From positions 1 through 49,942 of the forward strand of contig JAAYDB010000075.1 in the NCBI GenBank assembly GCA_012729475.1: 49,942 nt of DNA, in the 5' to 3' direction. Position 1 is the stretch's first letter. Each line of letters begins with the position of its first letter. Below the pieces are notes generated by a model, which saw only the letters and a program-made list of their open reading frames with translations, made no database searches and had not been told where the DNA came from. Shown piece by piece: positions 3,325-48,881 of the stretch. The translations under genes were made by a program, and so were the position numbers. Origin of the DNA: Bacteroidota bacterium (lineage in GTDB: Bacteria > Bacteroidota > Bacteroidia > Bacteroidales > VadinHA17).

Positions 3325-3371
3325 TGTAATTTGGTGTGGTTTTTGACGAACATATTTTAACACGCCCTGTT

Positions 3372-3899
3372 ATGAAAAAATTCAAATATCTACTGTTCTC
3401 CGTTTTCTTTCTTTCCGTTTTTTTCTCATGCGGGAGAATTGAGCAGTTACCTCCCGAACCTTATATTGATTTCACCAGTTTTACTGTTTTTGACACTATT
3501 GATATTCTCGGGAATGATTGTAAGGGTGGGCGACTAAAGTTTTATTTCGAAGACGGGGACGGAGATTTGGGTCTTGATCCGCCGGAGAATGATAATGATA
3601 CAGATACAACAAATCTCTTCTTCACTGCATACAGGAAAACCGGCGGGATAATGGTGGAAGTGACCAGTGATGATGTGCTGTATCCCTCCGACTACAGGAT
3701 CCCGTATATGGAAAGGCTGGGACAGAACAAGCTTCTTAAAGGGACCATTGCTGTATCTTTCCTATACCTCTTTTATGATGTTTCGGATAATGACACATTA
3801 ATATACGATTTCTTTATCAAAGACAGGGCGGGCAATATAAGCAATACAGAATCAACGACAGAGATCTCACTGTCGCATAACGACATATATCAGGAATAA
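3372..3899 (+). CDS. Small Bacteroidetes lipoprotein of unknown function
   Basis: A 175-residue predicted lipoprotein. It begins MKKFKYLLFSVFFLSVFFSC, a signal peptide ending in a lipobox with Cys20, so it should be lipid-anchored in the envelope. An in-frame GTG lies 36 bases upstream, but ATG 3372 places the signal peptide correctly. The mature part contains the acidic motif EDGDGDLGL (from about residue 60), seen in many uncharacterised Bacteroidetes lipoproteins and reminiscent of a calcium-binding loop, then predicted beta strands and a polar C terminus. It follows der by 47 bases and is convergent with the phosphatase gene; the two stop codons are only 3 bases apart. No function can be assigned. 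Confidence 0.85.
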   Translation: MKKFKYLLFSVFFLSVFFSCGRIEQLPPEPYIDFTSFTVFDTIDILGNDCKGGRLKFYFEDGDGDLGLDPPENDNDTDTTNLFFTAYRKTGGIMVEVTSDDVLYPSDYRIPYMERLGQNKLLKGTIAVSFLYLFYDVSDNDTLIYDFFIKDRAGNISNTESTTEISLSHNDIYQE

Positions 3900-3902
3900 C
3901 TC

Positions 3903-6900
3903 TTAAAACCGTACTCCAATCAGAAGGATATCATCCACCTGGTCATAAGTGCCTTTCCATTCCTCATAAAAGTGTACTATCCTGTCTTTCTGTTCAGTCA
4001 TCGGCAGGTGAGTCCCCTCTTCTATAAGACTCTTCAGTCTGGCTATTTTCATTTTCTTACCGTCAGGTCCTCCAAACTGATCCGGCAACCCATCAGAGAA
4101 AAGATAAATAGTATCTCCTTCATCCAGAAAATATTCCTGGTCATCAAAGAATTTTTCATTTACTGATTCCCCTCCAATAGAGCATCTGTTACCTTTTATA
4201 TAAAGTGATTCTCCCTGAGTAACCAGTATAACCGGACGCATGGCAGACGCAAAACGAATATGGCGGGTCCTTATGTCAATCTCACATATCGTCATATCCA
4301 TTCCATCATTTGACACACCCATTTCAAGGTTCTGATTAAGAGTCGAAAATATCTGGTCATCAAGAACTTTCAGGATTTTTGAAGGTTTGGTAATATGTTG
4401 ACGGAGAATTATATCCTGTAATAATGTTGAACCTATCATTGACATGAACGCTCCAGGCACTCCATGCCCGGTAGAATCAGCACATACCAGAATGAACTTT
4501 TCTTCATTCAGCCTGTCAAACCAATAGAAATCACCGCTCACTATATCACGGGGGTAAAAAACAATAAAGGCATCTTTTACTGCCTCCTTCAGCTTGCTAA
4601 AATCAGGCAGTATGCTGGTTTGTATCCTTTTAGCATAATTAATACTGTCTGTTATTTCAATATTCTGCATCTCGATTTTGTCCTTCTGCCTCATCACCTC
4701 ACTTGTTCTGGCATCCAGCTCTTTTTTAAGATATTGTTCAAGCTTCTTCTGTGCTTTCTCCCTCTCTCTTACAATGATGATAACAACCAGGGTGACAACT
4801 GCAAGAGATAAAAAATAAAACCATAATGTTCTCCAGAATGGCTTTTTTATTATCAGATTAAAAGATACAGGTTCACTGGTCATTTCATCATCACTGACGG
4901 AAACCATTTCAAATCTGTACCTGCCGTCACGGGGTGCAAGAATCACTTCTCTGTCGGTAGTCCATCCCGACCAATCACTATCCCAGTTATCCAAACGGGT
5001 CTGATAAAATACTTTTTCCGGATCCCTCAGACTAATACCTACATAATTTACTTTGATAGTATATTTCTTTCTGTAAGGCAAGGAAAATGAAGACTGATAA
5101 GGATACTGGGTATCGTTAATTGTAATGTAGTTTATGTTATTAAAAGGTGGTACATCAACAGGATTGTCCTTATCCCTGTCATAAATTATCAATCCTTCCG
5201 TAGTACCAAGAAATATATCCCCGTCAGAAGACTCAAACATCCCCTGTGGATTACATTTACCTCCCAGGGCAAAGTCTGTTTCATAAGACTTTATCGTACC
5301 GGTTCTCCTGTCATACAGGGAGAATCCCCGCTCATGACCAATCCATATCCTGTCCTGTGAATCAGAGAGAACACTGTAACAGTAATCCGACATCAGCATG
5401 TCGGATCTGCTGTATGATCTGACTGAATCGCCATATAATTCATATAATCCATACCCTTCAGTGGCAGCCCACATATGACCATCCATGCTCTGGCTGAAAG
5501 CTGTAATGGAATTCATTGTTCCGGGCATAACAGCCTTCCCTGAAGAAACACCTTTTTCCGGATCAATCTGATACAATCTGTCAGTTTTGGTTGCAATAGC
5601 TGCCAAACCTTTATCTCCTATGAAAACCTGAGCTATACTGTTATGCGGAAGTCCATTTGTTATATTATATTCTGCAATAAGGGCGCCGGTATAACGATCC
5701 AGCAGAATCACTCCATTGAGAGATCCCAGCCATATATACTGATCATCTATTGTAATATTTTTTATGTAATCCTTTCCGGAATCTCCGGAAAAATAAACTC
5801 TTTTTACCCTTTTTGTTCTGTCTCTGACAAACAATCCGCTGCCTGTAGTGCCAAACCAAATATCTCCTTCCTGGTGAACATAATAGGAAGATATATCTTC
5901 TCCTCCTGTAACTTTTCTGAGATCAGTGAATGATTCATAAATGTCATTATCCGGATCATAAAAATAGAATCCGGCCGGTGTCCCAAGAAATAACCTTTCC
6001 GCACTTTCCGTAACATATATTATATTGTTAGTTTCCGGTTCTGTCCCCGGAATATAAAATCTGAAAGCAAGAGAATTGAGCATCGACAGTCCGTCTCCGA
6101 ATAAAGCAAACCACATATTTCCTTCAACATCCTGAAAAACATTCCGGGAATTATTACCCGGCAGACCGGAATCCCTGTTAAATATTTTCCAGGATTTAAC
6201 TGACACATCTTCTTCTGAAAGATCCAGATAAATGAAACCTATATCATTAGTTGATATCCATAATGATCCGCCGGAATCTTCATAAATAGAACTTACATTC
6301 AGACTTTTAAATTCTTCAAGATCACTTAAAGGTATGAGTGTATTGGTATCATCAGCAATTTCAAGTTTAAAAAGAGTATTGCCATTGGTTCCTGCTATAT
6401 ACAGACCATCACGGGTATTCAGTTTATGTATTGCTGTTACGTTCGAATAATCAAATCCTTCAACAGAATTTATTTTTATAAGTGTGTCTTTTTCAACACC
6501 CATTATTAAAATGTTCTCCTGTGTTCCCAGAAGGATATTTCCTTCCGAAGTCATAGAAGCAGAGAAAAGAGCAAGGCTACTTTCAATTTTGTAAGTCTTT
6601 ATCTTTTGTCTGTCAAGAGGATCAACCCTGAAAAGAGCGTCTCCCTGAGGTACTATCCAGACAGAACCATCGGGTCCTTCAAATATTTCCTCAATAAACC
6701 GGGTATTTGGTAAGGGCAGTTTATCAAGAACAGCTGCTTCATAATAATAAACAGAACCATTATTGCATCCGAACCACAGAGCACCTTTACTATCTTTAAT
6801 GTTAACCGTAGGGTAATGACCGCTTAGTGAATCAGGATAAGGAATATTATGAAAAGTAAATCCGTCAAACTTTGATAAGCCGTTTGCAGTACCCACCCAA

Positions 6901-7070
6901 AGGTAACCGTCGTTATCCTGTCCGAGAGTATAAATAAAAGTATTTGGTATTCCGCTCTCAATTCCGAAGTTCTTAAACCTGTAGGTCTGACCGTTTAGAA
7001 TATGTGTTATTAATAATAAACACAATAATATGATTCTTTGTGGGTTTCTTCTTTCTTTATTGAATATCAT
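3903..7070 (-). CDS. Propeller/Y_Y_Y sensor protein with SpoIIE-type PP2C phosphatase output
   Basis: A 1055-residue single-pass membrane sensor. A signal peptide (about 1-27) precedes two-component-regulator propeller repeats (about 30-640) with recurrent blades such as DNDGYLWVGTANGLSKFDG and DSQDRIWIGHERGFSLYD. A Y_Y_Y domain follows (about 656-737), then a transmembrane helix (about 750-770) and a coiled coil. The C-terminal SpoIIE/PPM phosphatase domain starts near residue 840, with metal-binding motifs SGDFYWFD, ADSTGHGVPGAFMSMIG and SDGLPDQFGG intact. These periplasmic modules usually feed histidine kinases; here the output is a serine/threonine phosphatase. It is the last gene of the minus-strand envelope block, 17 bases after the secreted-protein gene. 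The likely target would be a phosphorylated regulator such as an anti-sigma-factor antagonist, but no candidate is visible nearby. Confidence 0.9.
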   Translation of the reverse strand: MIFNKERRNPQRIILLCLLLITHILNGQTYRFKNFGIESGIPNTFIYTLGQDNDGYLWVGTANGLSKFDGFTFHNIPYPDSLSGHYPTVNIKDSKGALWFGCNNGSVYYYEAAVLDKLPLPNTRFIEEIFEGPDGSVWIVPQGDALFRVDPLDRQKIKTYKIESSLALFSASMTSEGNILLGTQENILIMGVEKDTLIKINSVEGFDYSNVTAIHKLNTRDGLYIAGTNGNTLFKLEIADDTNTLIPLSDLEEFKSLNVSSIYEDSGGSLWISTNDIGFIYLDLSEEDVSVKSWKIFNRDSGLPGNNSRNVFQDVEGNMWFALFGDGLSMLNSLAFRFYIPGTEPETNNIIYVTESAERLFLGTPAGFYFYDPDNDIYESFTDLRKVTGGEDISSYYVHQEGDIWFGTTGSGLFVRDRTKRVKRVYFSGDSGKDYIKNITIDDQYIWLGSLNGVILLDRYTGALIAEYNITNGLPHNSIAQVFIGDKGLAAIATKTDRLYQIDPEKGVSSGKAVMPGTMNSITAFSQSMDGHMWAATEGYGLYELYGDSVRSYSRSDMLMSDYCYSVLSDSQDRIWIGHERGFSLYDRRTGTIKSYETDFALGGKCNPQGMFESSDGDIFLGTTEGLIIYDRDKDNPVDVPPFNNINYITINDTQYPYQSSFSLPYRKKYTIKVNYVGISLRDPEKVFYQTRLDNWDSDWSGWTTDREVILAPRDGRYRFEMVSVSDDEMTSEPVSFNLIIKKPFWRTLWFYFLSLAVVTLVVIIIVREREKAQKKLEQYLKKELDARTSEVMRQKDKIEMQNIEITDSINYAKRIQTSILPDFSKLKEAVKDAFIVFYPRDIVSGDFYWFDRLNEEKFILVCADSTGHGVPGAFMSMIGSTLLQDIILRQHITKPSKILKVLDDQIFSTLNQNLEMGVSNDGMDMTICEIDIRTRHIRFASAMRPVILVTQGESLYIKGNRCSIGGESVNEKFFDDQEYFLDEGDTIYLFSDGLPDQFGGPDGKKMKIARLKSLIEEGTHLPMTEQKDRIVHFYEEWKGTYDQVDDILLIGVRF

Positions 7071-7087
7071 AACAGCCCTGTAATTGT

Positions 7088-8092
7088 TTATTTAGGCCTT
7101 TTAACCGGTGTGATTTTTACTTTTGGCTGGTAAACAGGTACACCTCCTATAGGAGAGCTGAAAAAAGGTAAAGCATCTCCCCTCTGGCTTTCAAGTGTTA
7201 TTACAACATTATTGTTTCTGACCAGTTCTCCCTGCCTTTTATGGAACTGAAAATCGAGAGAAGAGTTGACTTCCTGATCTTCTATGGGAATTCTGGATTC
7301 CTGCCAGTTGTCTTCACCTGATATGGGGATCTCAATTCCCTGTTTATACCTTGAAACAACCAGAATATTGCCATCGTCATCCCAGTCAAAATTTCGTTGT
7401 CTGATGTAAACTACTCCGGTATCAACATAAGGATATATATGCGCAACACTTTTAAAGTTGTTCCACATCCTGAAAGTATATTCATAAGTAAAAGCGTTCC
7501 CTCCTTCTACCGCCTGATTATTGTCCGGATCACGGCTAAGAAAATAACGATACAAATTGCCATCATCCCCACTAACACCTTCACAAATCACTTTAAAGAG
7601 ATATGAATTCCATTTAGTGCTGAAATCACCCGCAGTCGGATTGAAAGGGCCAAAAGTAAACCAACTGTTATCATATCTCGCCTCTTCCCCAAATGCTCTG
7701 GAGGCCAATAAATTACCCCCCTTGTAATTCAGTCCTTCTATGAGCCCCCTCGATTCTTCATTTCTGTCAGGATCCACTCCACGTCCCCCATAGATTGAAA
7801 AAAGGCATCTTGTATTGAATTCTCCCTGTATTTCATCATTTTCTCCTCCTGTATCAGGATCAAACACCCGTATATAAAATGGTTGTGTATATTCCTGGGG
7901 TATGGAAAAAAACCAGACTGAATAAAAATCATTATCGCCCCAGGATGTCATTGCCTCTTTTCCAAATGTTACAAGAAAAGGTATATTTTCGTCACTTCCC
8001 GGCACTTCCTGTCCCGAAAGTGGATTGACAGATAAAACCAAATAAAATGTTAAAATTAAAAATATTGAGTACAAATGCCTTATAAGTGTCAT
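7088..8092 (-). CDS. Secreted protein of unknown function
   Basis: A 334-residue protein that I do not recognise. It starts MTLIRHLYSIFLILTFYLVL, with a signal peptide apparently cleaved after LSGQ, so it is exported. The mature part is rich in aromatic residues, Gly, Asp and Asn, with few long hydrophobic stretches; predicted strands such as PFYIRVFDPDTGG and YEYTFRMWNN suggest a beta-sandwich. It ends with a basic, proline-containing tail (KVKITPVKRPK) and no T9SS sorting domain. It sits between the PD40-PKD gene (35 bases upstream) and the propeller-phosphatase gene (17 bases downstream), both on the same strand. It could be a periplasmic or surface accessory of the module, or the ligand read by the sensor; both are inference. 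Confidence 0.75.
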   Translation of the reverse strand: MTLIRHLYSIFLILTFYLVLSVNPLSGQEVPGSDENIPFLVTFGKEAMTSWGDNDFYSVWFFSIPQEYTQPFYIRVFDPDTGGENDEIQGEFNTRCLFSIYGGRGVDPDRNEESRGLIEGLNYKGGNLLASRAFGEEARYDNSWFTFGPFNPTAGDFSTKWNSYLFKVICEGVSGDDGNLYRYFLSRDPDNNQAVEGGNAFTYEYTFRMWNNFKSVAHIYPYVDTGVVYIRQRNFDWDDDGNILVVSRYKQGIEIPISGEDNWQESRIPIEDQEVNSSLDFQFHKRQGELVRNNNVVITLESQRGDALPFFSSPIGGVPVYQPKVKITPVKRPK

Positions 8093-8127
8093 TAAATTAG
8101 TAATTTACATATTTTTCATTTTCAGTA

Positions 8128-9558
8128 TCAGGGTGTAACTATAATGCTTTTACAGACACAGGATTCCCTGACAACACCGCTCTGATCCGGGACAGAAGTA
8201 ACTATCAGTTGAATATTATAAGTACCGGGTTTCGTAAACACTTTATCAACTTCCCTGCCAATTGCTATTGTTTCATCACCAAAATTCCAGTAATACCTTG
8301 CGATATTCCACCCGGGCAGATTTGTTTTACTGGCATCAAACTTTATGTCACTTCCGGCAACACATTCATCGGGGCCTGTAATATACGGTTGCTCCGCATC
8401 AGAGATTTCAAGGTTATACGTCTTTTGGTTGAACATTGTTTCTCCTGTAATAAGATTTACAACATCTAGCTGTACCAGATATGATCCGGGGCCCGGATAA
8501 CAATGTTCCACTATTGAACCAACTGCTGTTTCACCATCTCCTAATCTCCATTCATAACTGAAAGGTATGGTATCGTATTTAACAGCGTTTTCCTCAACGA
8601 GTTGATAACAATAATTGTTTTCGACGAGTGTATCGCAATCCGCTTTTCTGATGATGGTAGATACGAACTGATATATGTCGTCACTTCTTCCCCGGTTAGA
8701 TGAAAAATAACCCGATTGAAATGTCTGGTCAGCAACAAATGCAAAATCGTCGGATTCTGAATTAATGGGTTCAGTCATTATAACCGGTTTCTGCCATTCG
8801 CCGAAAGACAATAAAGTATAATAAACGTCCAGATTACCATAACCTCCCGGACGGTCAGAAGAGAAATAGAGGCGTCCTGACGGGTGCATAAAAGGATAAC
8901 TCTCGTTTGAAGATGAATTAACAATTGGACCCAGATTACGTGGTGTACTCCACTCCCCATTGACCATCTCACATAAATAAATATCAGCTCCTCCTTGTCC
9001 TCCCGGCATATCCGAGGAAAAGAACAGATATTTTCCATCCTTGGTGACAGCCGGTTGCGCAATGTTGTAATCGCTGCTGTTAAAAGCAAAAGGACGTAAA
9101 GAGACAAGCTCACTTCCTTCCAGCTCTGCAACAAAAATCCCACTGGAATTATTATAATTTCTTCTTCTTGTGATCTTTCCTGTTTCCGTTTCACTGGTAA
9201 AATACACTGTTTTTCCATCCGGATCAATACACAAAGGTCCGTTATTAAAAAGAAAACTCCTCTCACTAATCACTTCCCTCGGTTTCAACCAGTCAGCGGA
9301 ATCTTTTTTCTCTGCAAAATAGATATTGAAGAGCCGTCTTCCTTCAAAAGTAGTACGGTCAACAATACTACTGAATCTCCTGTCAGAACAGAACAACACT
9401 CCATCCTGCACTATCACAGGAGATATATCATTAAAGATACCCGTGCTGAACGGCATCCTTGTCACTTTATACAATTCCGGATCCTCCTGTGCTGTCGCCC
9501 ATGAGGGCAACAGTACTGCGATCAAAAAAAAGATATTATAGAGAAGCCTTTTATACAT
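8128..9558 (-). CDS. PD40 (TolB-like) propeller protein with two PKD domains
   Basis: From ATG 9558 the protein has 476 residues with a signal peptide ending near TAQ; a TTG codon immediately upstream is in frame but not needed. The N-terminal half holds PD40/WD40-like blades of the TolB type, for example GKYLFFSSDMPGGQGGADIY and SGRLYFSSDRPGGYGNLDVY. The C-terminal half holds two PKD-type folds, at about 335-385 (EWRLGDGET...GSYLVQLDV) and 415-475 (YYWNFGDET...GTYNIQLIV). Unlike PorE-type T9SS proteins, it shows no OmpA peptidoglycan-binding domain. It starts three bases after the PorP/SprF stop codon, so translation is probably coupled. A structural or adaptor role at the outer membrane together with PorP/SprF is inferred. 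Confidence 0.85.
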   Translation of the reverse strand: MYKRLLYNIFFLIAVLLPSWATAQEDPELYKVTRMPFSTGIFNDISPVIVQDGVLFCSDRRFSSIVDRTTFEGRRLFNIYFAEKKDSADWLKPREVISERSFLFNNGPLCIDPDGKTVYFTSETETGKITRRRNYNNSSGIFVAELEGSELVSLRPFAFNSSDYNIAQPAVTKDGKYLFFSSDMPGGQGGADIYLCEMVNGEWSTPRNLGPIVNSSSNESYPFMHPSGRLYFSSDRPGGYGNLDVYYTLLSFGEWQKPVIMTEPINSESDDFAFVADQTFQSGYFSSNRGRSDDIYQFVSTIIRKADCDTLVENNYCYQLVEENAVKYDTIPFSYEWRLGDGETAVGSIVEHCYPGPGSYLVQLDVVNLITGETMFNQKTYNLEISDAEQPYITGPDECVAGSDIKFDASKTNLPGWNIARYYWNFGDETIAIGREVDKVFTKPGTYNIQLIVTSVPDQSGVVRESCVCKSIIVTP

Positions 9559-9561
9559 CAA

Positions 9562-10524
9562 TTAAAAATATCTTGGATTAGCAGCACTCACTTTTGATCC
9601 GAAATCATATCTCAGTATAAACTCTGTGGACCCTTTCGAATAAGAATTCATCCTTCCTGCAGGATAATCGTACGAAAAACCTGCCATCATTTGGGGAGTA
9701 ATCTGAAACTGTAAAAGCCCTACAAACACCTGTCCTGTAATACGGTAAGAACATCCTGCCCACACGATATCAGCAATTATTATGTTACCGTTTATATCAA
9801 ATTGACTGAGTTTCTTCGTTTCCTGCAAAGAATAATTTATCAGCACAGACGGCTTTAACCTGAACAGAGGTGATATATTTATCAGTCCGCCCGCATTGAA
9901 AATAAATTCGTATTCCATGAAATCGTGATAGGCCTGTACATTCCCGTTGCCTGAATTTCTGTAGGATAAAAAAGAAGGAATTGATATTCCTGCAAATAAT
10001 CTGTCATTAAAATAGTAAAGTCCAAATCCCGTATTGGGCAATATATATTTTTTTTCATCTTCAGCAAAGACAGGATCAGGTCTGGATATTCCAAGTAATC
10101 CTGAATAATCGGTATTTGAGATATCTGCTCCGGCTTTTAGTCCAAAAGACAGTTTCCCTCCTGCCATCCTTATATGGTAGGCATAGACTCCAAAAATACT
10201 TGCCGACCTTGTAACTCCATATTGCATAAAACGGGCTTTCATACCAAGAGCCACCCTGTCATTCTTCATGGGTGTATGAAGTGATAATGCCTGTAAGACG
10301 GGAGCTCCTTTAGTTCCCATCCACTGTACCCGGTATGACAATGCTGTGCTTAAAGCACTTCTGGATCCCGCATAAGCCGGATTTATCATCAGTCCGTTAT
10401 GAAGATACTGACTATAGACCGGATATCCTAAGGTGATTCGTGATGAATCATTAAAACCCTGGCCCGACAATACCATTGGAAATAATAACAAAAAAAATGT
10501 CAATATCTTAATGCCCCTGTACAT
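9562..10524 (-). CDS. PorP/SprF family type IX secretion-associated outer-membrane protein
   Basis: A 320-residue predicted outer-membrane beta-barrel. The signal peptide (about 1-22, ending LSGQ) is followed by the family hallmark YSQYLHNGLMINPAYAGSRS and by alternating barrel strands to the terminal aromatic residue (NPRYF). In Flavobacterium johnsoniae SprF is needed to export its partner SprB, and PorP/SprF-like genes often neighbour genes for type-B sorting-domain cargo. That arrangement is seen here, with the large cargo gene 44 bases upstream in the same direction. The PD40-PKD gene follows at once. The core T9SS machinery (gldKLMN, sprA, sprE) is not in this window. The family call is firm; pairing with this cargo is inferred from context. 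Confidence 0.92.
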   Translation of the reverse strand: MYRGIKILTFFLLLFPMVLSGQGFNDSSRITLGYPVYSQYLHNGLMINPAYAGSRSALSTALSYRVQWMGTKGAPVLQALSLHTPMKNDRVALGMKARFMQYGVTRSASIFGVYAYHIRMAGGKLSFGLKAGADISNTDYSGLLGISRPDPVFAEDEKKYILPNTGFGLYYFNDRLFAGISIPSFLSYRNSGNGNVQAYHDFMEYEFIFNAGGLINISPLFRLKPSVLINYSLQETKKLSQFDINGNIIIADIVWAGCSYRITGQVFVGLLQFQITPQMMAGFSYDYPAGRMNSYSKGSTEFILRYDFGSKVSAANPRYF

Positions 10525-10568
10525 TTATCTTTTGTAAGTAATGACGGTATCCAAATCATTCTTTTTTT

Positions 10569-13500
10569 TTATCTCCTTTTCAAAATAATAAACCCGCTAT
10601 TCGGAATTACCGATCCGGTTTTTTCTGAAATTATCTTAAGTAAATAGTAATAGGTGCCTTCAGGCAGTTCTTTCCCCTGTGAACTTCTGCCATCCCAGTT
10701 TTCCCATGTATTGTTGTTTTGATTTGATGTTGAGAATACAATGGTACCGGCTCCGTTAACTATTGTAAGTTCTGCTTTCTGATTAACAGGGTCGAATCCG
10801 GTAATAATAAGTTCATCATTGATATTATCTCCGTTAGGTGAAATAGCTTCCGGAATCACTGAGGAAGTAACTTCAATGTTGACCATATCCTTAAGCTGAC
10901 AAGGCCCATTTGTCACTGTCCACTCATAAGTATTCAGTCCGGTTGATATATTCCGTACATCAGTATCATTCTTTGTGTCATCATCAAAATCTCCTGTTCC
11001 GTTAACGACACTCCATTTCCCCGATTCAAAAGGCTCGACCGGATAGGCATTCAGTTTTACCAGATAATCAAAAGACATGAATGCTGAATCGGCTCCTGCA
11101 CTTATTGTATCTATACGGTTAAAAAAGGTTATAGTAACTGAATCTTTGCTGACACATTGCCAGTTTCTTTCTTCCCAATAGAATTTATACGATACACTTG
11201 CCGCAGTGAATGATGAATCAATCACTACTGTTGTTGTGGGATCACCGGCTACAGACGATACCACCTGTGGAGGAAAAGACCACAAACCTGTACCCACACT
11301 TGGGACTGCGGCCAGTTGATATTCAGGACCACATACCTGGTCATCAGGTCCTGCGTAAGCAACAGGTACACTGTATACATCAGCCTTTCTGCTACCGCTG
11401 AGTGATGTTGCAACACAACCATTATTATCAGTCAGCGAAACCAGGGAGTAATTAAATACCGTCATACTTCCAGCGGCTACAGGAGACACTGTCAGCACTG
11501 TATCTGAAGCCGTTATATCACTTACAACTTTTACTGTGGAATTCTCATTGTATGTCAGAGTCCATTCCGGGGATCCTGTGAGCCGGACTCTGAGCTTAAC
11601 CTGTCCTCCGCTGCATATAGTGGTATCAGTGACTGTTGTAATCATACCGGTGGGCAGAGGATCAATATCAATAACAAATTCATTGGACATACTGTAACAA
11701 CAACTTTCAGGACCAGATAAGATAATTCTTCGGTACCATCTCTTTGAAGTCAGTGGCGGTGGAGAATAATTCTGTTGATCATTGATACCGGCGGCAGGTG
11801 TCCAGTCAATACCGTCTGTACTTTCTTCCCATATCCATTGCGGAGTGCCGTTGGCACCTCCTGTCAGCCCTGTTCCTGTAAGCGGAGAAGGTATCTGATT
11901 ATAACAGGCCGATGTCTTTGCAGAAGTGATAACATTATTTGTAATTGGTGGCAACACGGTTATTTTTATACTGTTACTTTCAGATGAACAGGTTCCTGAA
12001 ATGACTCTTCTCCTGAACCATGTTGTTACAGTTAGTTCACCGGGCTGATAATCCCTGAGGGTTCCTGATTCGCTTATATCAGTGAATTCATTGTTATCTG
12101 TTGAATAAGACCACTGATATGCATAATCGCCTTCATTATCTGTTCCGCCTGAGGGTATACTTCCCCTGATCATATTGGGAACTGATCCGCTGCATATGGT
12201 TGTGTCGGTAGCTGATCCTGACAAAAGAGCTGCAATATTATTTAATATCGGTTTATGAACATTAACCACAACAATATTACTTATGTCCATACACTTTGAT
12301 GAGCTGACGATTCTTCTGTACCATGTTGAATCAGTGAGTGCAGGAGGCGAATAATCTTTAAGGCTGTTAGAACCTGAAGCTTCTGATTCCCATGTCAATC
12401 CATCATCACTCTGCTCCCATGAATATGAGTATGTCCCGTCACCTCTTGTTGGAACAGTACCTTCAAGAGGAGTAGGTACTGAACCTGAACAGATAGTTTC
12501 ATCAGAGGCAATTTCATTGTTTTGTATGCTGAAATATCTTATCAGTTCTATCGGCAGGCTGGAACTCTTACATACATTGTCAGGGCCGGAATAAACTATT
12601 CTCCTGTAATATCTGTTCTGTAATGATGTAAACTGAGATGTGTCCACGTTGTATGCGGGGTTTGAATTAACACCCGGAGCTGTCTGCCATGATCCGGCAG
12701 CTGTACTATCCTGCCATTCATAGATATAGCTTCCTGATCCTTCTCCTGGTGCTGAAGCACTCAGTACAGGGAAAAGAGAACCCTGACATATAACCGAATC
12801 CGGACGTGCGGTAACATTCCCTGTAATTAACGGGAGCACAGTAACAGTAACTGTAGGGCTGTAACTGATACAGCGGCCTGAAGTAACATATCTTTTATAC
12901 CAGGTGGTAGTTGTGAGGGCTGCCGGGTCATAATCTTCAGAAGCAGACGATCCTGGAGCATTAACAGTCCAGGTAGTGTTATCGGTGTTGGCAAGCCATT
13001 GATACTGATAATAGCCGTTACCATTGGAAGGACCGGAATTAAGCGGGATAAGGCTCAAAGGATCCTGTCCGTAACAGATTGTTGTATCACTGCCTACCAG
13101 ATTGCCTGTAATAGCCTGATGGACTATAACCTTAACAGCTTTACTGATATCAGTAACAGGAGTGGAACCCGCATCTGTGACGACTCTTCTGAACCATGTA
13201 TCCTGTGTAAGCAGGTAACTTTCCGGAGGGGTATAATTGATCTGGTTGTTTACACCCGGCGCTGGGGAAAAACCATCATTTTCAGATGTTGTACTATATT
13301 CCCACAAATATGAATAAGGTGTTGTTCCTCCTATAGGTATTGTGCCGGTAAATCCCGGGAATGGTGTATCAGAACATATTGAATCGACCTGTGTCCCGGT
13401 TATCAGTGATCTGACCGAGTTAAAGAGGAAACCGTTAAGGACAGGGGTAAAATCAGATATAGTATCTCCTGCCTGTCCGGGTTGACCTGTTATACCCAGG

Positions 13501-14810
13501 GCCCGTGTTCCCCCCATTCCTCCTTCTACAGTTAATGATCCGTTTGCCGGAAGAGGAGTATTATTGGTTGTAATAAGACCACCGCCACCACCTCCGCCTT
13601 CGCCAAAAGAAGAAGTGGTATTTCCTCCTTTACCTCCTTTGGAGGATAAAATGATACCTGAAGTAAGAGGATCAACAGAATAACTCTGCAAATACAGACC
13701 TATTGCTCCTCCTCCACCACCGCCTCCGGCTCCGGCATCTCCTGACGCCTCTAAAGAAGGAGAAGCTCCTTCGGCAAGTATGCTGTATCCGTTACCTTTC
13801 AGGGTATCGCATACAAGAATGGCTATTCCGCCTCCGTTACCTCCATCAGTTGCCGTATTCACAGTAAGGTATGTTGAAGATCCTCCTCCTCCTCCCAGTA
13901 ACATACTTTTGAGAGTGGTACCCAGATAAGTACTTTTCACCTGAAGACCTCCAAGGCCTCCGGTAAAATTAAAACCACATTCCTGTTCTTCTTTCCCTCC
14001 CAGGCCTCCGGCTCCGTAATTACCACCACCGCCACCGCCGGAGAATCGTCCGTCACCACCACCTCCACCTGTCAGACTGGGTCCTTTCCCTTTGGCAAAA
14101 AGAGGATATAAGGGGTATATCGAATCTTCAGTTATCCAACCTTGTGAAACAGGGCCTTCTCCTTTAAAACCGGCACTATCGGATAAACCTGAATATGCAT
14201 ACTCATACATACGGTCAGTCTCTGCACAAAGCCCGAGACCCTGAGAAGCTTTGCCTCCTGCAAAACCTTTACCAGTTACGTCAATGTCAGCCTTAAGGGA
14301 GAGAGTATTTCCAATAATAGCAGCCAGGACACCGCCGGTTTTTGATATACTGTCCCATGGCTGACAGCTGAGAGTCGCATCAACTTCGGCATAATTATAC
14401 GAAGGAATCTTTACTATCTGAATATCACCCAGAACACTGAAATCTGAATTGACAATATTGTTTTTAAAAGTAATGGTATTAGTTGCATCATTGACTGATT
14501 CAACTATCAGAAACTCATGCTGGCCCGGCAAACCGTAATTATATTCAATAAACCCGTAAGACACCTCCTCTCTGACCAGGATCCTTACCCCTTTCATCTG
14601 GATCAACAGTACTGTGTCGCCTGCTGAAAACTGTCCAAACTGTGCCTCATCATCAACCTGCACAAGATCAGCACCCATAGAGTTCACTCTGGCATATTTA
14701 TTTACAATACCACTAATCTTCTTCTGTGAAAATACAGTAATACTATATCCTGTTAGTAAAATAAGGCACAGAATAAGAAATCTCAAGTGGTCTGATAGTT
14801 TTCGGGTCAT
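10569..14810 (-). CDS. Large T9SS type-B secreted surface protein with glycine-rich domain and Ig-like repeats
   Basis: From ATG 14810 the protein has 1413 residues (two in-frame TTG codons just upstream are not used here). A signal peptide (about 1-31, ending TVFSQ) is followed by a beta-rich region (32-240). A strongly glycine-rich domain with runs of five to seven Gly lies at about 243-443. Six tandem Ig-like repeats of about 97 residues follow (470-1052), with the shared pattern TICSGSVP, W(E/Q)xSxD, YxPPxLT and WYRR. Three more Ig-like modules come next. The C terminus (about 1317-1413) has the CHU_C / gliding-motility type-B sorting domain, with VIPEAISPNGDNINDELII and a final FIILKRR. 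It should therefore be exported by the T9SS and held at the surface, probably with the downstream PorP/SprF protein. An adhesin role is inferred. Confidence 0.92.
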   Translation of the reverse strand: MTRKLSDHLRFLILCLILLTGYSITVFSQKKISGIVNKYARVNSMGADLVQVDDEAQFGQFSAGDTVLLIQMKGVRILVREEVSYGFIEYNYGLPGQHEFLIVESVNDATNTITFKNNIVNSDFSVLGDIQIVKIPSYNYAEVDATLSCQPWDSISKTGGVLAAIIGNTLSLKADIDVTGKGFAGGKASQGLGLCAETDRMYEYAYSGLSDSAGFKGEGPVSQGWITEDSIYPLYPLFAKGKGPSLTGGGGGDGRFSGGGGGGNYGAGGLGGKEEQECGFNFTGGLGGLQVKSTYLGTTLKSMLLGGGGGSSTYLTVNTATDGGNGGGIAILVCDTLKGNGYSILAEGASPSLEASGDAGAGGGGGGGAIGLYLQSYSVDPLTSGIILSSKGGKGGNTTSSFGEGGGGGGGLITTNNTPLPANGSLTVEGGMGGTRALGITGQPGQAGDTISDFTPVLNGFLFNSVRSLITGTQVDSICSDTPFPGFTGTIPIGGTTPYSYLWEYSTTSENDGFSPAPGVNNQINYTPPESYLLTQDTWFRRVVTDAGSTPVTDISKAVKVIVHQAITGNLVGSDTTICYGQDPLSLIPLNSGPSNGNGYYQYQWLANTDNTTWTVNAPGSSASEDYDPAALTTTTWYKRYVTSGRCISYSPTVTVTVLPLITGNVTARPDSVICQGSLFPVLSASAPGEGSGSYIYEWQDSTAAGSWQTAPGVNSNPAYNVDTSQFTSLQNRYYRRIVYSGPDNVCKSSSLPIELIRYFSIQNNEIASDETICSGSVPTPLEGTVPTRGDGTYSYSWEQSDDGLTWESEASGSNSLKDYSPPALTDSTWYRRIVSSSKCMDISNIVVVNVHKPILNNIAALLSGSATDTTICSGSVPNMIRGSIPSGGTDNEGDYAYQWSYSTDNNEFTDISESGTLRDYQPGELTVTTWFRRRVISGTCSSESNSIKITVLPPITNNVITSAKTSACYNQIPSPLTGTGLTGGANGTPQWIWEESTDGIDWTPAAGINDQQNYSPPPLTSKRWYRRIILSGPESCCYSMSNEFVIDIDPLPTGMITTVTDTTICSGGQVKLRVRLTGSPEWTLTYNENSTVKVVSDITASDTVLTVSPVAAGSMTVFNYSLVSLTDNNGCVATSLSGSRKADVYSVPVAYAGPDDQVCGPEYQLAAVPSVGTGLWSFPPQVVSSVAGDPTTTVVIDSSFTAASVSYKFYWEERNWQCVSKDSVTITFFNRIDTISAGADSAFMSFDYLVKLNAYPVEPFESGKWSVVNGTGDFDDDTKNDTDVRNISTGLNTYEWTVTNGPCQLKDMVNIEVTSSVIPEAISPNGDNINDELIITGFDPVNQKAELTIVNGAGTIVFSTSNQNNNTWENWDGRSSQGKELPEGTYYYLLKIISEKTGSVIPNSGFIILKRR
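11655..13405 (-). repeat. Six tandem Ig-like repeats (about 97 codons each) within the T9SS cargo gene
   Basis: Successive units start with I(T/Q/L)(G/N)N-like residues, contain a conserved Cys in ICSGS or ICYGQ, a central Trp, a WYRR or WFRR motif and a second Cys in SGxC. The DNA copies have diverged, so these are protein-level repeats rather than recent DNA duplications. Confidence 0.85.
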
Positions 14811-14864
14811 CAACAACCTGTAATGAAATGCTAATATACTAATAATTGTTAAAACAAAACTGAA

Positions 14865-17800
14865 TCAGTCTGCCATGTCTTTTCCTGCTTGCCCGACAAC
14901 AGACTTCAACGGAAATTCCACGAAAAAAGTTGTCCCTTCATCAGTCTTTGATTCAAACCATATCTTTCCATTTGCAGCTTCAACATATTTTTTAACAATT
15001 GATAAGCCCAGACCTGTCCCTGATGATTTTGTGGTAAAGTTGGGGGTAAACATTCTTCCTCTAAGATTTTCCGGTATTCCAGACCCATTATCAACAACCG
15101 ACACCCTGACTCGTGTACCTGTAATTTCAGCAGATACACTAACATACCCTTTCCGTCCCTGCGGTATTGCCTGTATGCTGTTTTTTATAAGGTTAGAGAA
15201 AATACCGTTAACCTGTTCTTTGTCGGCATAAATAAGCGCATCATTTTCCGAAGGCCAGTTTAGTATAAATGTTATATTTTCTGTATTACGGAAAAGTTCA
15301 AGAGTGGTGTTAATCTGTTCTTTCAAACTCATTACTACGGGATTTGAGCCGGGCATCTTGGCAAAAGAAGAAAAAGCTGAAGCAATAAGTGAGAGATTAT
15401 CAATATATTCAATCTGGTTTCTGACAAAAATCTGTAGCTTCTCCCCAAAACCGGAAGGATTATCCTTCCACGATTTAAGTAGTTGCTGAACATTCAGCTT
15501 CATTGGAGTAAGAGGGTTTTTTATCTCATGGGCTACCTGCTTGGCCATTTCTCTCCAGGCATATTCACGTTCTGTGGAGGCAAGCTTATGAGTGCTCTCT
15601 TCAAGTTCATCAACCATTCTGTTATATTGTCTGACCATATCTCCTATTTCATCCTTCCCGCTGTAATACAGATGTTCACTCTTTTCTCCAAGTCTCACGG
15701 AAGCGAGCCCTTTACTTAACATTGTAAGTGGTGAAGTGAGAGTTCCGCTGATAATGACGGCAAGTCCCATAGTGATCAGGATAAGAAGTAAAGTGAAATT
15801 TATTATGGCAACAATCAGATTTGATATCTCTGTAGCTAACGCACTCTGCATCCTGAAATAAGGCAGGTTAAGAAATGCCTGTATTCTGTAATCTTCACTG
15901 TATAAAGGCATATAAACCGATATATATTTCATGTTTCCCATCTGTTCTGTCTGGAAGAACTCTGTTCTGGTAAAATCGGAAACATTCCTGAAAGCCGTCA
16001 TATCCATCCTGCGGCTGGTAAGATTACGATAATATATTTCCGGACGGGAGGTGGCTGTAAGAAAACCGTTAAGATTATATATATTAATGTCGGTATTGAA
16101 GATATTTGAAAGATCAACGAGAAGTTCATTAAGTGGCTGACTGGTACCTGAACCGTTAACAGGATAAAGCAACATGTCTTCCGATATTTTGTTTTCCAGT
16201 TCAATATTTATCGAATTGAGCTTTTCTTTAATATTTTCATAGTGTTTCGATCTGTATTCATTTACAGTAAAAAGAGCGACCATTACTCCGATAAGAATGA
16301 ATGAGAACAACAGGATTCCAATGTAAGACAACTGAAGTTTTTGACGGAAATTAAGGCTCAGACTTCTATTTATCGAGGGTCTGTTTACAAGAAGGACAAA
16401 AATATTTCCAAGAAGCAAAAGGAAAGTGAAAAGATAGGCAAATGATATTAAAAGGTTACCTGTATTAAGTGATTGTCTGCTTATTACAACTGTAGTATTG
16501 CCGTTTTTGTATGCAACATGCTTGTATTTTCCCGATTCAAATATCCTGTAATCAGTATTCTCTTCAATATATTCATCATCTGTCTTATTGAAGGCAAAAT
16601 CTCCTGAACTCAATACAACAAGGCCATTTATATATTTGGCGAATGAGTAGTTTTTCAGACCAGAAAAGTCATCGAATTTTTTATCTATAAGAAGCTCTGA
16701 ATATCCGGGCTGAAAGACATTAATGTCGCTGTATAATTCTATAAATAAACCATGTATTGTATTCAGGTCTTTACTGAAATTTAAAACACCTATATAGTAT
16801 GATCTCCCACCAAGATTATCAATAAAATAAAAGTTTGTGCCGGTTAGCCTGTGCCCGTATTTAGCTGTCCGTCCGTTGAAAAAATCGAAGCAATTATCCC
16901 AATCATCTTCTCCGGAACCAATCTTCAATAACTGATTTTCGCGGCAGAGAACAAAATTGATATTATAATTAGCCCAGTAACCTGTAAAATACGCTGAGGT
17001 AAGGTAGTCAGTTATCATATTGACATCATCCTGACTCCGGTTGAAATCTTCAGCAACCATCATGTTATACAGTACTGTATCACTTGTCATCAAAGGCCAC
17101 ATATCCAGCAACAGATGCTCAGCTGAAGGATCATTTTCAGTCGACAGCGAAAGAGCCTGCACCTTTATGTTTTCATTTGTCTTTTTTTCAGAGTTTATTG
17201 CTATTACATACAGTGAATATAATCCAAAGAGAAATGAAAATAATACTGTAGAATTAAAAATATTTATCTTCCTCTTTCCAAGAAACCATCTCAATGATAT
17301 AAGTCCCGTAAACAAAAGAGCTACTATCAGAAATGACACTATGCTACTACCGCAAAAGAAAAGAATAATCAGAAAAGAAGGGATAACAGATATTACAGTT
17401 GTTTTCAGTTTTACATCACCGGTATTCCTGAATACTTTAAGAATGATAAACAGAGGGACTAATAACAAAAGAAAAACAGACACATACCCTATAATACTTA
17501 ATGCGCTTATTTTCAACACCTTATAGGTCTCGAAATTAATATTTGAATCAAGGACCAACTGGGTAAAGATACGATGCATCATACTCAGAAGGAGGGCACC
17601 CAGGATGAATAATACTGCCCTCATAGTACATAATTTTTTCTGACTGTCAGTCTGCTTTACAGGCAGTGGAAAGCAAACATAAAAAATATAGGAAAGAACT
17701 GCGCAAAAAATGCTAAAAAGGAACAGATGTCCCAGTGAGGGGATGATACTGTTAAGTGAAAAAACATATGGTGAAAATAATTCTGTCCGTAAAAAGACCT

Positions 17801-18611
17801 CCGGCACTTTGAAATATAGAACCACCAGATAAATAATTGAAAAGAGCAGAGCAGAAGTCACTAATGCCTTCACTCCTTTCCATGATCTTTGCGGTCTTTT
17901 TGTCTGCGACAACATTAACATAATAATTGAGACCAGTACCATTGCCCATAGGATAAGAGGCACTATTATGAGAAGAGTATTGCTTTTTGTTTCCGGAAAG
18001 TCAAGAGAGAAAAGAAAAACACCTGCATTATTGTACACCTTGTATTCTTCTTCACCCGGATGTACATTCAGCATAACGCTTTCAGGCACCCTGAAATCTT
18101 TCACGAAGCCACTTCTTACAATGTCATTCTCATAACTGTAGACGCTTCTGATCCTTACAAGGCCAATCAGTTCATGATTCCCAGTTTTTATCCTGTCATG
18201 AATAAACCATCCGTTTTGAATGAAAACAACAGGATTATTGAATAATGAATCCCCTGGTAATCCGGGAACATCAAAATCGTTGTCAGACCAATAAACAAGA
18301 TTTTGATCAATATATTCAAGTATTGTTATTCCTTCTCTTGCAGCTAAAGAAGAAATACTCCTGCCTGATATTGGCCCGGGAGTCTCTTCCTGACCAGGAA
18401 CAGGTCGTAACTTTTCGAGACAATCCTTCATTATTCTTTCCTTTTCCTGCAGTTTCCTGTTGAATCTTTTAGTCATCAAACGGTATTCGAAGTCGCTTAA
18501 ATAGAAGGATTCAGCTCCCAATGAAGCCAGAATAAGGAATACTGTAAGTATAAAAAGTAATAATCCGGAGCGTCTCTCTCTGCTCATTGAGTGGATATAA
18601 GTTTTAATCAT
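14865..18611 (-). CDS. Large multi-pass sensor histidine kinase, NtrY-like
   Basis: From ATG 18611 the protein has 1248 residues; an ATG at 18587 is an alternative start. A first membrane helix and an extracytoplasmic loop (about 36-210) lead into roughly seven further helices, a second large loop, two helices, a third loop and a last helix before a HAMP domain. The dimerisation domain carries the phospho-acceptor His1028 in QVAHEIKNPLTPMKLNVQQL. The ATPase domain shows NLIKNSIQAIPQG, DNGSGIP and GTGLGLSIVKKY. The HEIKNPLTP motif and HAMP layout resemble NtrY, but I see no PAS domain. It overlaps the end of rlmH by 8 bases (ATGATTAA), so translation is coupled. No response regulator lies in the window, so its partner is unknown. 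The T9SS cargo gene follows 54 bases on. Confidence 0.93.
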   Translation of the reverse strand: MIKTYIHSMSRERRSGLLLFILTVFLILASLGAESFYLSDFEYRLMTKRFNRKLQEKERIMKDCLEKLRPVPGQEETPGPISGRSISSLAAREGITILEYIDQNLVYWSDNDFDVPGLPGDSLFNNPVVFIQNGWFIHDRIKTGNHELIGLVRIRSVYSYENDIVRSGFVKDFRVPESVMLNVHPGEEEYKVYNNAGVFLFSLDFPETKSNTLLIIVPLILWAMVLVSIIMLMLSQTKRPQRSWKGVKALVTSALLFSIIYLVVLYFKVPEVFLRTELFSPYVFSLNSIIPSLGHLFLFSIFCAVLSYIFYVCFPLPVKQTDSQKKLCTMRAVLFILGALLLSMMHRIFTQLVLDSNINFETYKVLKISALSIIGYVSVFLLLLVPLFIILKVFRNTGDVKLKTTVISVIPSFLIILFFCGSSIVSFLIVALLFTGLISLRWFLGKRKINIFNSTVLFSFLFGLYSLYVIAINSEKKTNENIKVQALSLSTENDPSAEHLLLDMWPLMTSDTVLYNMMVAEDFNRSQDDVNMITDYLTSAYFTGYWANYNINFVLCRENQLLKIGSGEDDWDNCFDFFNGRTAKYGHRLTGTNFYFIDNLGGRSYYIGVLNFSKDLNTIHGLFIELYSDINVFQPGYSELLIDKKFDDFSGLKNYSFAKYINGLVVLSSGDFAFNKTDDEYIEENTDYRIFESGKYKHVAYKNGNTTVVISRQSLNTGNLLISFAYLFTFLLLLGNIFVLLVNRPSINRSLSLNFRQKLQLSYIGILLFSFILIGVMVALFTVNEYRSKHYENIKEKLNSINIELENKISEDMLLYPVNGSGTSQPLNELLVDLSNIFNTDINIYNLNGFLTATSRPEIYYRNLTSRRMDMTAFRNVSDFTRTEFFQTEQMGNMKYISVYMPLYSEDYRIQAFLNLPYFRMQSALATEISNLIVAIINFTLLLILITMGLAVIISGTLTSPLTMLSKGLASVRLGEKSEHLYYSGKDEIGDMVRQYNRMVDELEESTHKLASTEREYAWREMAKQVAHEIKNPLTPMKLNVQQLLKSWKDNPSGFGEKLQIFVRNQIEYIDNLSLIASAFSSFAKMPGSNPVVMSLKEQINTTLELFRNTENITFILNWPSENDALIYADKEQVNGIFSNLIKNSIQAIPQGRKGYVSVSAEITGTRVRVSVVDNGSGIPENLRGRMFTPNFTTKSSGTGLGLSIVKKYVEAANGKIWFESKTDEGTTFFVEFPLKSVVGQAGKDMAD

Positions 18612-19077
18612 GGTGATAGGGTTCACCCTTAATGATTGTAAATGCCCTGTAAAGTTGTTCAGCAAACAATAACCGTACCATCTGGTGCGAAAAAGTCATC
18701 TTGGACAGAGATAATTTCATATCAGAGATCTTATAGACATCTCCCGAAAAACCCCAGGGACCACCGATAACAAATAAAATCCTTCTGGTCTGATACATCA
18801 TCTGCCTTTCCAGCCATCCTGCAAATTCACTAGTATTCATTTGTGCACCTGCTTCATCAAGCAGAACAATATAGTCATTCTTTCCGGCTGATTCAATTAT
18901 CTTTTTCCCTTCTTTGTCCTTTTGCTCCACTAACGGCATATTCCTGTTATTCCTTATTGCCGGAATAGTGATTATCTCAAAAGCCGTATATCTTTTAATT
19001 CTTTGTGAATATGTATCTACGCCTGAAACAATATACTGTTCTGTTGTCTTACCTGTTTGCAATAATGCAATTTTCAT
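18604..19077 (-). CDS. rlmH: 23S rRNA (pseudouridine1915-N3)-methyltransferase RlmH
   Basis: RlmH methylates pseudouridine 1915 in helix 69 of 23S rRNA using S-adenosylmethionine, acting on assembled 70S ribosomes. The 157 residues match the usual SPOUT-fold length. The SAM-binding knot is visible as LFVIGGPWGFSGDVY, followed by LSLSKMTFSHQMVRLLFAEQ and the hallmark C terminus GEPYHHD. A full consensus promoter lies upstream (19126-19156). Its last 8 bases overlap the histidine kinase start, so rlmH appears to be the first gene of a transcript that may reach the envelope genes. In many Bacteroidetes rlmH neighbours DUF4783-nadC; here the two units are divergent. Confidence 0.96.
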   Translation of the reverse strand: MKIALLQTGKTTEQYIVSGVDTYSQRIKRYTAFEIITIPAIRNNRNMPLVEQKDKEGKKIIESAGKNDYIVLLDEAGAQMNTSEFAGWLERQMMYQTRRILFVIGGPWGFSGDVYKISDMKLSLSKMTFSHQMVRLLFAEQLYRAFTIIKGEPYHHD

Positions 19078-48035: not shown

Positions 48036-48881
48036 ATGGATAAAAACGCTAAAACGAAGGATTCTGTAAGAATAGACGTAAGTGAAGTGCTCAGATCGAA
48101 GAATCCTTCACTTGCAAAAGTCATTCCCTCTTTTATTGTAAATTATTTAAAGAGGATCATACATCAGGATGAATTGAATGATTTTCTTGAGAGATCAGCT
48201 AATTTAAAAGATATTGATCTGGTTGAAGCTTCTCTTGATTTTCTTAAAATAAATTACAATGTTATCGGGAAGGAAAATCTGCCAGGTGAAGGAAGGTTCA
48301 TTTTTGTTTCCAACCATCCTTTGGGAGGTCTTGACGGAGTGATTTTTATGTATGAGTTATCGAGGCACTACAGTGAAATAAAATTTCCTGTAAATGACAT
48401 ACTTACAAACATAAAAAATCTTTCAGGGATTTTTCTCCCGGTCAATAAGCATGGAAGCCAGGGGAAAGAGGCCATCAGGGTTCTCGAAGAAGCTTACCGT
48501 TCCGACAGTCAGATACTGTATTTTCCTGCAGGATTATGTTCAAGAAAGAAGAAGGGAATAATCACTGATCTGCAATGGCAAAAAAGTTTTATCACAAAAG
48601 CTGTAAAACATCAGAGGGATATTGTTCCTGCATTTTTTTCAGGAAGAAATTCGGATTTTTTCTACAATCTTGCCCGTCTTCGGACATTCTTTGGGATAAA
48701 AGCGAACATAGAGATGTTATATCTCCCGGATGAAATGTTCCGGCAAAGAGGCAAAAAGATCACTCTGGTCTTTGGGAGACCCATATCATGGGAAACATTT
48801 GACAATTCAAAAACTCCGCTTGAATGGGCAGGATGGGTTAAATCGATGACCTACCGGTTACAGTCATTTGTAAACGAATAA
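48036..48881 (+). CDS. glsA: PlsC-type O-acyltransferase, GlsA-like (glycine-lipid synthesis)
   Basis: A 281-residue lysophospholipid acyltransferase-family protein. The catalytic block is FIFVSNHPLGGLDGVIFMYE with His94 and Asp100, a H-x5-D arrangement rather than the usual H-x4-D; the NHPLGGLDG form is what I recall for Bacteroidetes members. YFPAGLCSRKKKG corresponds to the second substrate motif. There is no signal peptide; the enzyme is probably peripheral on the inner membrane. It precedes a GNAT-type N-acyltransferase gene by 76 bases. In Bacteroides thetaiotaomicron glsB and glsA make glycine lipids: GlsB N-acylates glycine and GlsA O-acylates the product. By that precedent this is GlsA; the substrate is inferred. 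Confidence 0.8.
   Translation: MDKNAKTKDSVRIDVSEVLRSKNPSLAKVIPSFIVNYLKRIIHQDELNDFLERSANLKDIDLVEASLDFLKINYNVIGKENLPGEGRFIFVSNHPLGGLDGVIFMYELSRHYSEIKFPVNDILTNIKNLSGIFLPVNKHGSQGKEAIRVLEEAYRSDSQILYFPAGLCSRKKKGIITDLQWQKSFITKAVKHQRDIVPAFFSGRNSDFFYNLARLRTFFGIKANIEMLYLPDEMFRQRGKKITLVFGRPISWETFDNSKTPLEWAGWVKSMTYRLQSFVNE

Follow-up and report, generated by a model that had tools for sequence, protein, structure and literature searches.

A recurrent five-gene unit of Bacteroidota in which a type IX secretion triad precedes a family-less exported-looking protein and its propeller receptor

Introduction

Do five closely packed genes for a surface protein, its secretion partners, and a membrane receptor belong to a single system, and could such a system report to the cell the state of its own surface? 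This question is raised by a contig of a Bacteroidota bacterium (JAAYDB010000075.1), the entire length of which, 49,942 bases, was analyzed and is called the window from here on (the genome assembly comprises 2.97 Mb in 187 contigs). One strand of the window encodes, one after another, a large cargo protein of the type IX secretion system (T9SS), an outer-membrane barrel of the PorP/SprF family, a protein with PD40 and PKD domains, an exported-looking protein of 334 residues without a recognised family (UNK334), and a receptor with a propeller ectodomain. The five genes are a recurrent unit, the core of the module is the UNK334-receptor pair, and a role in signalling across the envelope is tentatively proposed for it.

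The known regulators of the T9SS, PorX and PorY, act on the machine as a whole, and the means by which Bacteroidota could tell whether a given surface protein is exported, anchored, or engaged have, to our knowledge, not been described. A complex of PorE and PorP with the type-B protein PG1035 is formed in Porphyromonas gingivalis (PMC9143113), and five operons of Flavobacterium johnsoniae each encode a type-B substrate, an SprF-like shuttle, and a PorE homologue (PMC12618676), according to the available portions of both reports. Also, a Cys-X-Cys tail couples SprF to the moving gliding track, as described in the available part of a third report (PMC12635249).

Organization of the locus

Five open reading frames on the minus strand between positions 3,903 and 14,810 had been proposed in the original prediction, and all of them are present, belonging to the families claimed according to Pfam and NCBIfam scans. 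In the reading direction, the order is cargo, PorP/SprF, PD40-PKD, UNK334, and receptor, as follows:

10569..14816, minus strand: type-B T9SS cargo, 1415 residues, with an ATG start at 14810 and CHU_C at the C-terminus
9562..10524, minus strand: PorP/SprF-family outer-membrane barrel, 320 residues, a shuttle or anchor by family, without a Cys-X-Cys tail
8128..9561, minus strand: PorE-like protein with a PD40 propeller and two PKD stretches, 477 residues, without a TPR or OmpA match
7088..8092, minus strand: UNK334, 334 residues, exported-looking and family-less, with two predicted beta-sandwich-like parts, the usual partner of the receptor
3903..7070, minus strand: receptor, 1055 residues, with a signal peptide and one membrane segment (both seen by eye), a Reg_prop ectodomain, and a PP2C (SpoIIE) output

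The cargo and PorP genes are separated by 44 nucleotides, PorP and PD40-PKD by 0 or 3 nucleotides depending on the choice of start codon, and the last two gaps measure 35 and 17 nucleotides.

Recurrence of the five-gene order

The recurrence of this arrangement was assessed on 132 distinct UNK334 genes, obtained by requiring at least 150 bits and by removing copies whose last 200 residues coincide; 80 of them come from the genus or from named loci (the best 80 of 429 confirmed relatives, nearly all at the home locus). The gene neighbourhood, on whose conservation in relatives the original prediction had been made to depend, is strongly conserved: the five-gene order is present in 104 of the 132 loci, and the receptor lies directly downstream of UNK334, on the same strand, in 128 of the 129 cases with a readable downstream neighbour. 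The gap between these two genes ranges from -4 to 82 nucleotides, with a median of 9.5 and a 4-nucleotide overlap in 16 cases. Of the 28 loci that are not in full order, 17 are truncated by the end of their contig at one or both sides. A receptor directly downstream of UNK334 is also found in 17 of 20 loci from the wider class, and the adjacency of the pair is beyond chance.

Most of the 104 five-gene loci are one ancestral locus. Within the genus, this home locus is conserved all the way from der to nadC, so that by itself it proves little and the displaced copies are the informative ones. Upstream of the 104 loci, an NtrY-like gene is found in 66, a contig end in 22, and other genes in 12; the remaining four represent the home locus or a close variant of it, the cargo gene being split in three of them and NtrY being separated from the cargo by a single extra gene in L062. 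These 12 displaced loci, L064, L068, L069, L070, L172, L203, L207, L211, L222, L239, L240, and L241, keep the five-gene order. Moreover, two genomes (G042 and G011) carry more than one copy of the module each.

Regarding its distribution, UNK334 was found in 37 of 60 relatives searched, nearly all of the same genus, and in four of 25 genera. Matches are present in at least 58 of 393 sampled genomes of the order and at least 49 of 395 of the class, the window genome being counted in both; at most five candidates were scored per genome in the order, class, and phylum searches, and hence these counts are lower bounds. The loci examined correspond to 40 of 69 listed places from the order search (several others being covered separately) and 20 of 54 from the class search. 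The genomes with UNK334 include some assembled as a single contig, such as G1059, so cultivated carriers may exist.

The receptor and its output

The receptor of the window matches Reg_prop with 93.8 bits and SpoIIE (PF07228) with 80.6 bits, both above cut-off, whereas Y_Y_Y was not reported for this copy. The acidic residues D847, D865, D993, and D1046/D1047 of the PP2C domain are conserved in 19 of 21 aligned receptors, the remaining two having a histidine kinase instead. As judged by the domain match and these residues, the output of the window receptor is a predicted PP2C/SpoIIE phosphatase with the metal-binding aspartates. Among the 128 receptors, 113 have a PP2C output, two have a histidine kinase (L065 and L069, with Y_Y_Y and HisKA/HATPase), and 13 are incomplete or short. 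In L349 (9639-15031), the receptor stops after the membrane segment and has no output domain. The original prediction is to be corrected in this respect: given the two copies with a histidine kinase and the one that stops at the membrane, the design does not depend on a PP2C output. Directly upstream of UNK334 in L349, a His_kinase-family protein and a LytTR response regulator are encoded.

The genome of the window contains six SpoIIE domains, and two small STAS proteins and one HATPase_c_2 protein, presumably RsbW-like, score above cut-off. The small STAS proteins, of 112 and 111 residues, and the HATPase_c_2 protein are possible partners of the phosphatase.

To place the module receptors among related ones, trees were built from the 128 receptors, reduced to 57 below 55% identity, together with 15 other propeller-PP2C receptors that were picked by score and are part of the full set. 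In the ectodomain tree, a single split (support 0.995) groups all 57 module receptors with one of the 15 others, L308, which belongs to the genome of the window itself. In the output-domain tree, all 54 module receptors share their side with eight of the 15 others. A comparison of both splits indicates that the receptor ectodomain tracks UNK334 more closely than the output does. The ectodomain grouping, and the different neighbours of those other receptors, support the claim that the sensor is dedicated to the system. Also, in 24 genomes, the receptors beside UNK334 scored at least 949.7 bits (contig-end fragments set aside), the best other receptor reaching 813.1 bits (L294, without UNK334); propeller receptors as such are present in 23 of these 24 genomes.

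Other propeller-PP2C receptors follow a gene for a protein of 779 to 791 residues, as seen in L294 (4610-10122), L295 (1236-6792), L296 (5375-10912), L300 (2778-8335), L301 (8172-13693), and L303 (7374-12985). In L294, the only one scanned, this partner has TPR repeats and a caspase-like Peptidase_C14 domain. Each of these six loci lies near a ribD-like gene (by eye), and neither UNK334 nor the T9SS triad was recognised beside the six receptors. A propeller receptor with its own upstream partner gene may be a general rule.

The UNK334 protein

UNK334 has no Pfam or NCBIfam match up to an expectation value (E) of 0.1. A search against sequences of the PDB gave five matches, the best of them, at E 0.12, to designed TPR proteins, which does not place UNK334 in a family. 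A signal peptide is seen by eye, and a lipobox-like motif is rare (2 of 71). The closest protein among the named records is that of ADurb.Bin145, with 81% identity, these records being metagenome-assembled Bacteroidales or Bacteroidetes.

A first fold prediction, made with 21 sequences, reached a predicted local distance difference test score (pLDDT) of 67.5 and had no PDB match at E ≤0.001. With 57 sequences, the prediction reached a pLDDT of 89.4 and a predicted template modelling score of 0.85, being rich in beta-strands, and this second model had six PDB matches at E ≤0.001; among the 50 matches listed, which include SIDT ectodomains, PHM, DeCLIC, CUB, and viral capsid proteins, the template modelling score over the query does not exceed 0.26. 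The predicted model suggests that UNK334 consists of two beta-sandwich parts, with no relative identified in the PDB.

For the comparison of the five proteins, 93 modules with full-length members were reduced to 71 below 85% identity. UNK334 is the most conserved member, with a median identity of 0.52 versus 0.33-0.38 for the others. The protein had been described beforehand as accessory and of unknown family; the second part of this description stands, and the side role does not, because UNK334 is both the usual partner of the receptor and the most conserved member of the module.

The secretion triad

The C-terminus of the cargo matches CHU_C (PF13585) with 64.9 bits (cut-off 27) and TIGR04131 with 34.4 bits, slightly below the cut-off of 35. 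Its N-terminal part (residues 35-420) resembles AgmC N, below the cut-off of that model, and is followed by a long middle part. As for type-B substrates, a porP/sprF gene lies directly downstream of the cargo gene and SprA is encoded in the genome of the window. The cargo bodies of nine diverged copies differ, yet all nine end in CHU_C: Laminin_G_3 and SprB repeats are found in L063, HYR repeats in L172, SBBP in L069, and Ig_7 in L064, L070, and L211, and little or nothing is recognised in L222, L239, and L241.

The barrel protein matches PF11751 with 185.5 bits (cut-off 22.3) and TIGR03519 with 183.9 bits (cut-off 90.55), and it is one of nine PorP/SprF proteins encoded in the genome, the only one inside the module. 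None of the 71 non-redundant module PorPs has a Cys-X-Cys motif in the last 45 residues, so the cargo of the module is likely a fixed surface protein rather than a moving one.

The third member of the triad matches PD40, PKD, and PKD_4 with 59.9, 60.6, and 88.9 bits, each above cut-off. Against the NCBIfam model of PorE, it scores 168.3 bits, below the cut-off of 600. An OmpA domain, as PorE has, is present in two of five scanned PD40-PKD homologues (L063 and L172).

Partial modules and distant relatives

The UNK334-receptor pair is also found without the triad. No cargo, PorP, or PD40-PKD gene was recognised next to the pair in 5 of 52 loci (L218, L220, L226, L229, and L238), and in the wider class the pair lacks the triad in 7 of 20 (L337, L338, L340, L344, L349, L350, and L353), only a PD40-PKD-profile match lies upstream in 5 of 20 (L336, L345, L348, L351, and L352), and the full triad is present in 7 of 20 (L334, L339, L341, L342, L343, L346, and L347); in L335, the place of PorP was not recognised. 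Downstream of some pairs that lack T9SS genes lies a gene for 312 to 351 residues (L340, 11645-17013; L344, 5901-11254; L350, 1781-6965; L353, 7177-12418), which encodes TPR repeats in L340, the only one scanned.

In the phylum sample, at least 10 of 395 genomes match UNK334, eight of those outside the class. Outside the class, larger proteins begin with the UNK334-like domain; the complete ones mostly have 1600-1655 residues (one has 1149). In L163 (2646-19801), the only one of them scanned, the domain is followed by 15 PKD repeats, and a LysM-FecR protein and Cache/HAMP sensors adjoin; HAMP sensors or cyclases also adjoin the UNK334-like gene in L165 and L166. A receiver-SpoIIE gene lies in the same run in three of nine other-class loci (L163; L164, 1-9669; L170, 6087-14280), the other six having been scanned partly. 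Given the PKD fusion in L163 and the receiver-SpoIIE neighbours, the UNK334-like domain seems to be linked with PKD domains and PP2C signalling beyond the five-gene unit.

Neighbouring genes in the window

Upstream of the cargo gene, on the same strand and at a distance of 48 nucleotides, lies one further large gene, itself preceded by rlmH:

14865..18665, minus strand: NtrY-like histidine kinase, upstream neighbour at the home locus, judged to be outside the module

This kinase, which shows many hydrophobic stretches by eye and sits between rlmH and the cargo gene, was considered as a member of the module and rejected: NtrY and rlmH are kept beside the module at the home locus and are missing from the displaced copies. 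On the other side, positions 3336-3899 encode a protein of 187 residues that lacks a Pfam match and, by eye, begins like a lipoprotein; its gene is conserved and convergent to the module at the home locus. Farther away (26067-47097), genes for a NamZ exo-muramidase, an SBP_bac_3-SLT transglycosylase, and a Porin_10 protein adjoin a run that starts with FtsZ and reaches MraW, probably a division and cell-wall cluster, in which the genes at the two ends were scanned. Finally, an Acyltransf_2 and an Acetyltransf_5 gene are adjacent at 48036-49920, a pair that we take to be reminiscent of ornithine-lipid synthesis.

Discussion

How could these five proteins work together? UNK334 is encoded between the triad and the receptor, a position for which the most plausible role is that of a periplasmic co-receptor; the genes would then follow each other as their products do from the surface to the cytoplasm. 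The T9SS would export the type-B cargo, which the PorP/SprF barrel encoded next to it would retain; the PD40-PKD protein, being PorE-like, would bind the periplasmic side of this barrel; and UNK334, probably a soluble periplasmic protein, would join the assembly to the propeller ectodomain of the inner-membrane receptor. Assembly or occupancy of the cargo would alter the receptor and hence its cytoplasmic output, being in the window the action of the PP2C domain on a phosphoprotein encoded elsewhere, for example, one of the two small STAS proteins of the genome. Such an outside-to-inside chain, by which the five genes report cargo assembly or occupancy to the cytoplasm, is our preferred reading, although in our judgment it is evenly poised between acceptance and doubt. 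That PorP, together with the PorE-like protein, exports and anchors the cargo is expected from the known families; what UNK334 binds, which way signalling runs, what sets it off, and on what the output acts are only inferred. With doubt slightly prevailing, we also propose that the module could represent a new class of trans-envelope signalling, where cargo, barrel, and PorE-like anchor would be wired through a new family of UNK334 co-receptors to a receptor of exchangeable output that reports the state of the surface. If this is true, swapping the cargo body would change what the cell senses. From the self-monitoring surface system of the original prediction, the conserved neighbourhood and the dedicated sensor are thus retained, whereas an accessory 334-residue protein and PP2C as the fixed output are not.

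Several observations weigh against the chain. The PD40-PKD protein of the window had no match to the peptidoglycan-binding OmpA domain in the Pfam scan. Every one of the 41 genomes with UNK334 that were tested encodes SprA, and so do 34 of 40 without it, a near-equal frequency because of which its co-occurrence argues weakly for a T9SS dependence of UNK334; the 41 carriers include six other-class genomes with the fused form, only one of which has a PorP match (E 5.4e-7). Scans for promoter and terminator patterns stayed at chance (47 found versus 47.0 expected and 12 versus 11.3, respectively). L342 (1-7919) has the full triad and UNK334 without an adjacent receptor, the sole such case seen, and no receptor is found next to UNK334 despite a readable neighbour in L053, L336, L342, and L351. 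In L053 (133-6018), PD40-PKD and UNK334 are followed by a DUF5916/CBM9 protein in the place of the receptor. The pairs without a linked triad imply that the signal need not be a T9SS cargo. Correlations of pairwise distances are 0.90 for PD40-PKD and PorP, 0.84 for PorP and the sorting domain, 0.82 for UNK334 and the receptor, and 0.65, among the lowest, for UNK334 and PorP; the triad correlations (0.82-0.90) compared with this last value fit two loosely joined units as well as a chain. When residue covariation of UNK334 with its neighbours was calculated over 93 paired modules, a cytoplasmic control scored as high as the ectodomain, so that the calculation does not tell the two apart. Finally, no phosphatase target and no STAS or kinase partner linked to the module was seen, the STAS and HATPase_c_2 genes lying on other contigs.

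A different reading takes UNK334 and the receptor as a free-standing sensor of a small environmental ligand, with the triad being its regulated output or needed in the same condition, and without a physical link between both. The pair would then work like LuxP-LuxQ, a periplasmic binding protein with its receptor. The pairs without a triad described above (5 of 52 and 7 of 20 loci) and the low correlation between UNK334 and PorP speak for this reading, and the conserved Asp/Gly-rich stretches of UNK334 could bind a ligand or metal. Nonetheless, the triad lies directly upstream in 104 of 132 loci, with varied cargo bodies and in several places, which exceeds what co-regulation alone would explain, and in L163, from another class, a single protein carries both the UNK334-like domain and PKD repeats. 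We regard the free-standing sensor as unlikely, although it is the alternative to be taken most seriously.

It would be improbable that the module is an ordinary T9SS type-B operon, in which UNK334 has a structural or chaperone role and the receptor regulates its own operon without sensing the surface. F. johnsoniae has operons that bring a type-B substrate together with an SprF-like shuttle and a PorE homologue (PMC12618676, available part), propeller receptors are common (23 of 24 genomes), and L342 shows that the triad and UNK334 can occur without an adjacent receptor. However, UNK334 with the receptor and without T9SS genes is found in 12 loci, versus a single locus, L342, for the full triad without the receptor. 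As for a neighbourhood that reflects only shared ancestry in a region of few rearrangements, the five genes having no joint function, the conserved der-to-nadC region, the NtrY gene in 66 of 104 loci, and the named loci (best 80 of 429), nearly all at the home locus, would fit it, but it is hardly credible given the 12 loci that keep the five-gene order without NtrY and der nearby, the recurrence of the five genes in further orders (L334, L339, L341, L343, L346, and L347), and the genomes with more than one copy.

Regarding known systems, a periplasmic relay that reports an outer-membrane event to the cytoplasm is found in FecA-FecR-FecI. The proposed chain would work alike, whereas a TonB-dependent transducer, FecR, and a sigma factor are absent among the five proteins in the Pfam scan. 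Propeller (Reg_prop/Y_Y_Y) sensors include the hybrid two-component systems of Bacteroides, which share with the module receptor the propeller ectodomain and the single membrane segment, and with L065 and L069 also Y_Y_Y and HisKA/HATPase; the window receptor differs in its PP2C output and in the exported-looking partner encoded directly upstream. The receptors of the L294 type have a module-like architecture and an upstream partner gene, but that gene encodes an unrelated protein (with TPR repeats and a caspase domain in L294).

The closest parallels are the PorE-PorP-PG1035 complex and the F. johnsoniae operons, which like the module combine a type-B cargo, a PorP/SprF protein, and a PD40-type PorE-like protein. 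However, an UNK334-like protein and a receptor, both usual in the module, are not named in the available portions of those reports (PMC9143113, PMC12618676), and the window PorE-like protein, with PKD domains and without an OmpA or TPR match, is unlike the PorE of the known systems. SprB-SprF gliding also uses a type-B cargo with its own SprF barrel (PMC12635249, available part), in contrast with the module PorPs, where the Cys-X-Cys tail is found in 0 of 71. Searches of the open-licence literature of PubMed Central, outside of which most subscription papers and preprints lie, found no account of UNK334 or of a dedicated receptor with cargo, PorP/SprF, and PorE, nor of SpoIIE with type IX secretion or of a propeller with SpoIIE in Bacteroidetes; for surface or two-component signalling with SprF and for SpoIIE in Bacteroidota, as judged by titles and the openings of abstracts, no such arrangement came up either. 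Also, the main text of a survey of bacterial PP2C proteins (PMC12088040), in its available part, does not contain propeller, Reg_prop, or Y_Y_Y. Then, the triad and the receptor type are of known kinds, whereas UNK334 and the coupling appear undescribed in that literature.

Finally, with a unit in which a single cargo and the barrel belonging to it are tied to a dedicated receptor, the monitoring of surface proteins would become testable in these bacteria, and UNK334 would be a marker for locating such systems. Bacteria with the module may perceive what state their own surface is in.

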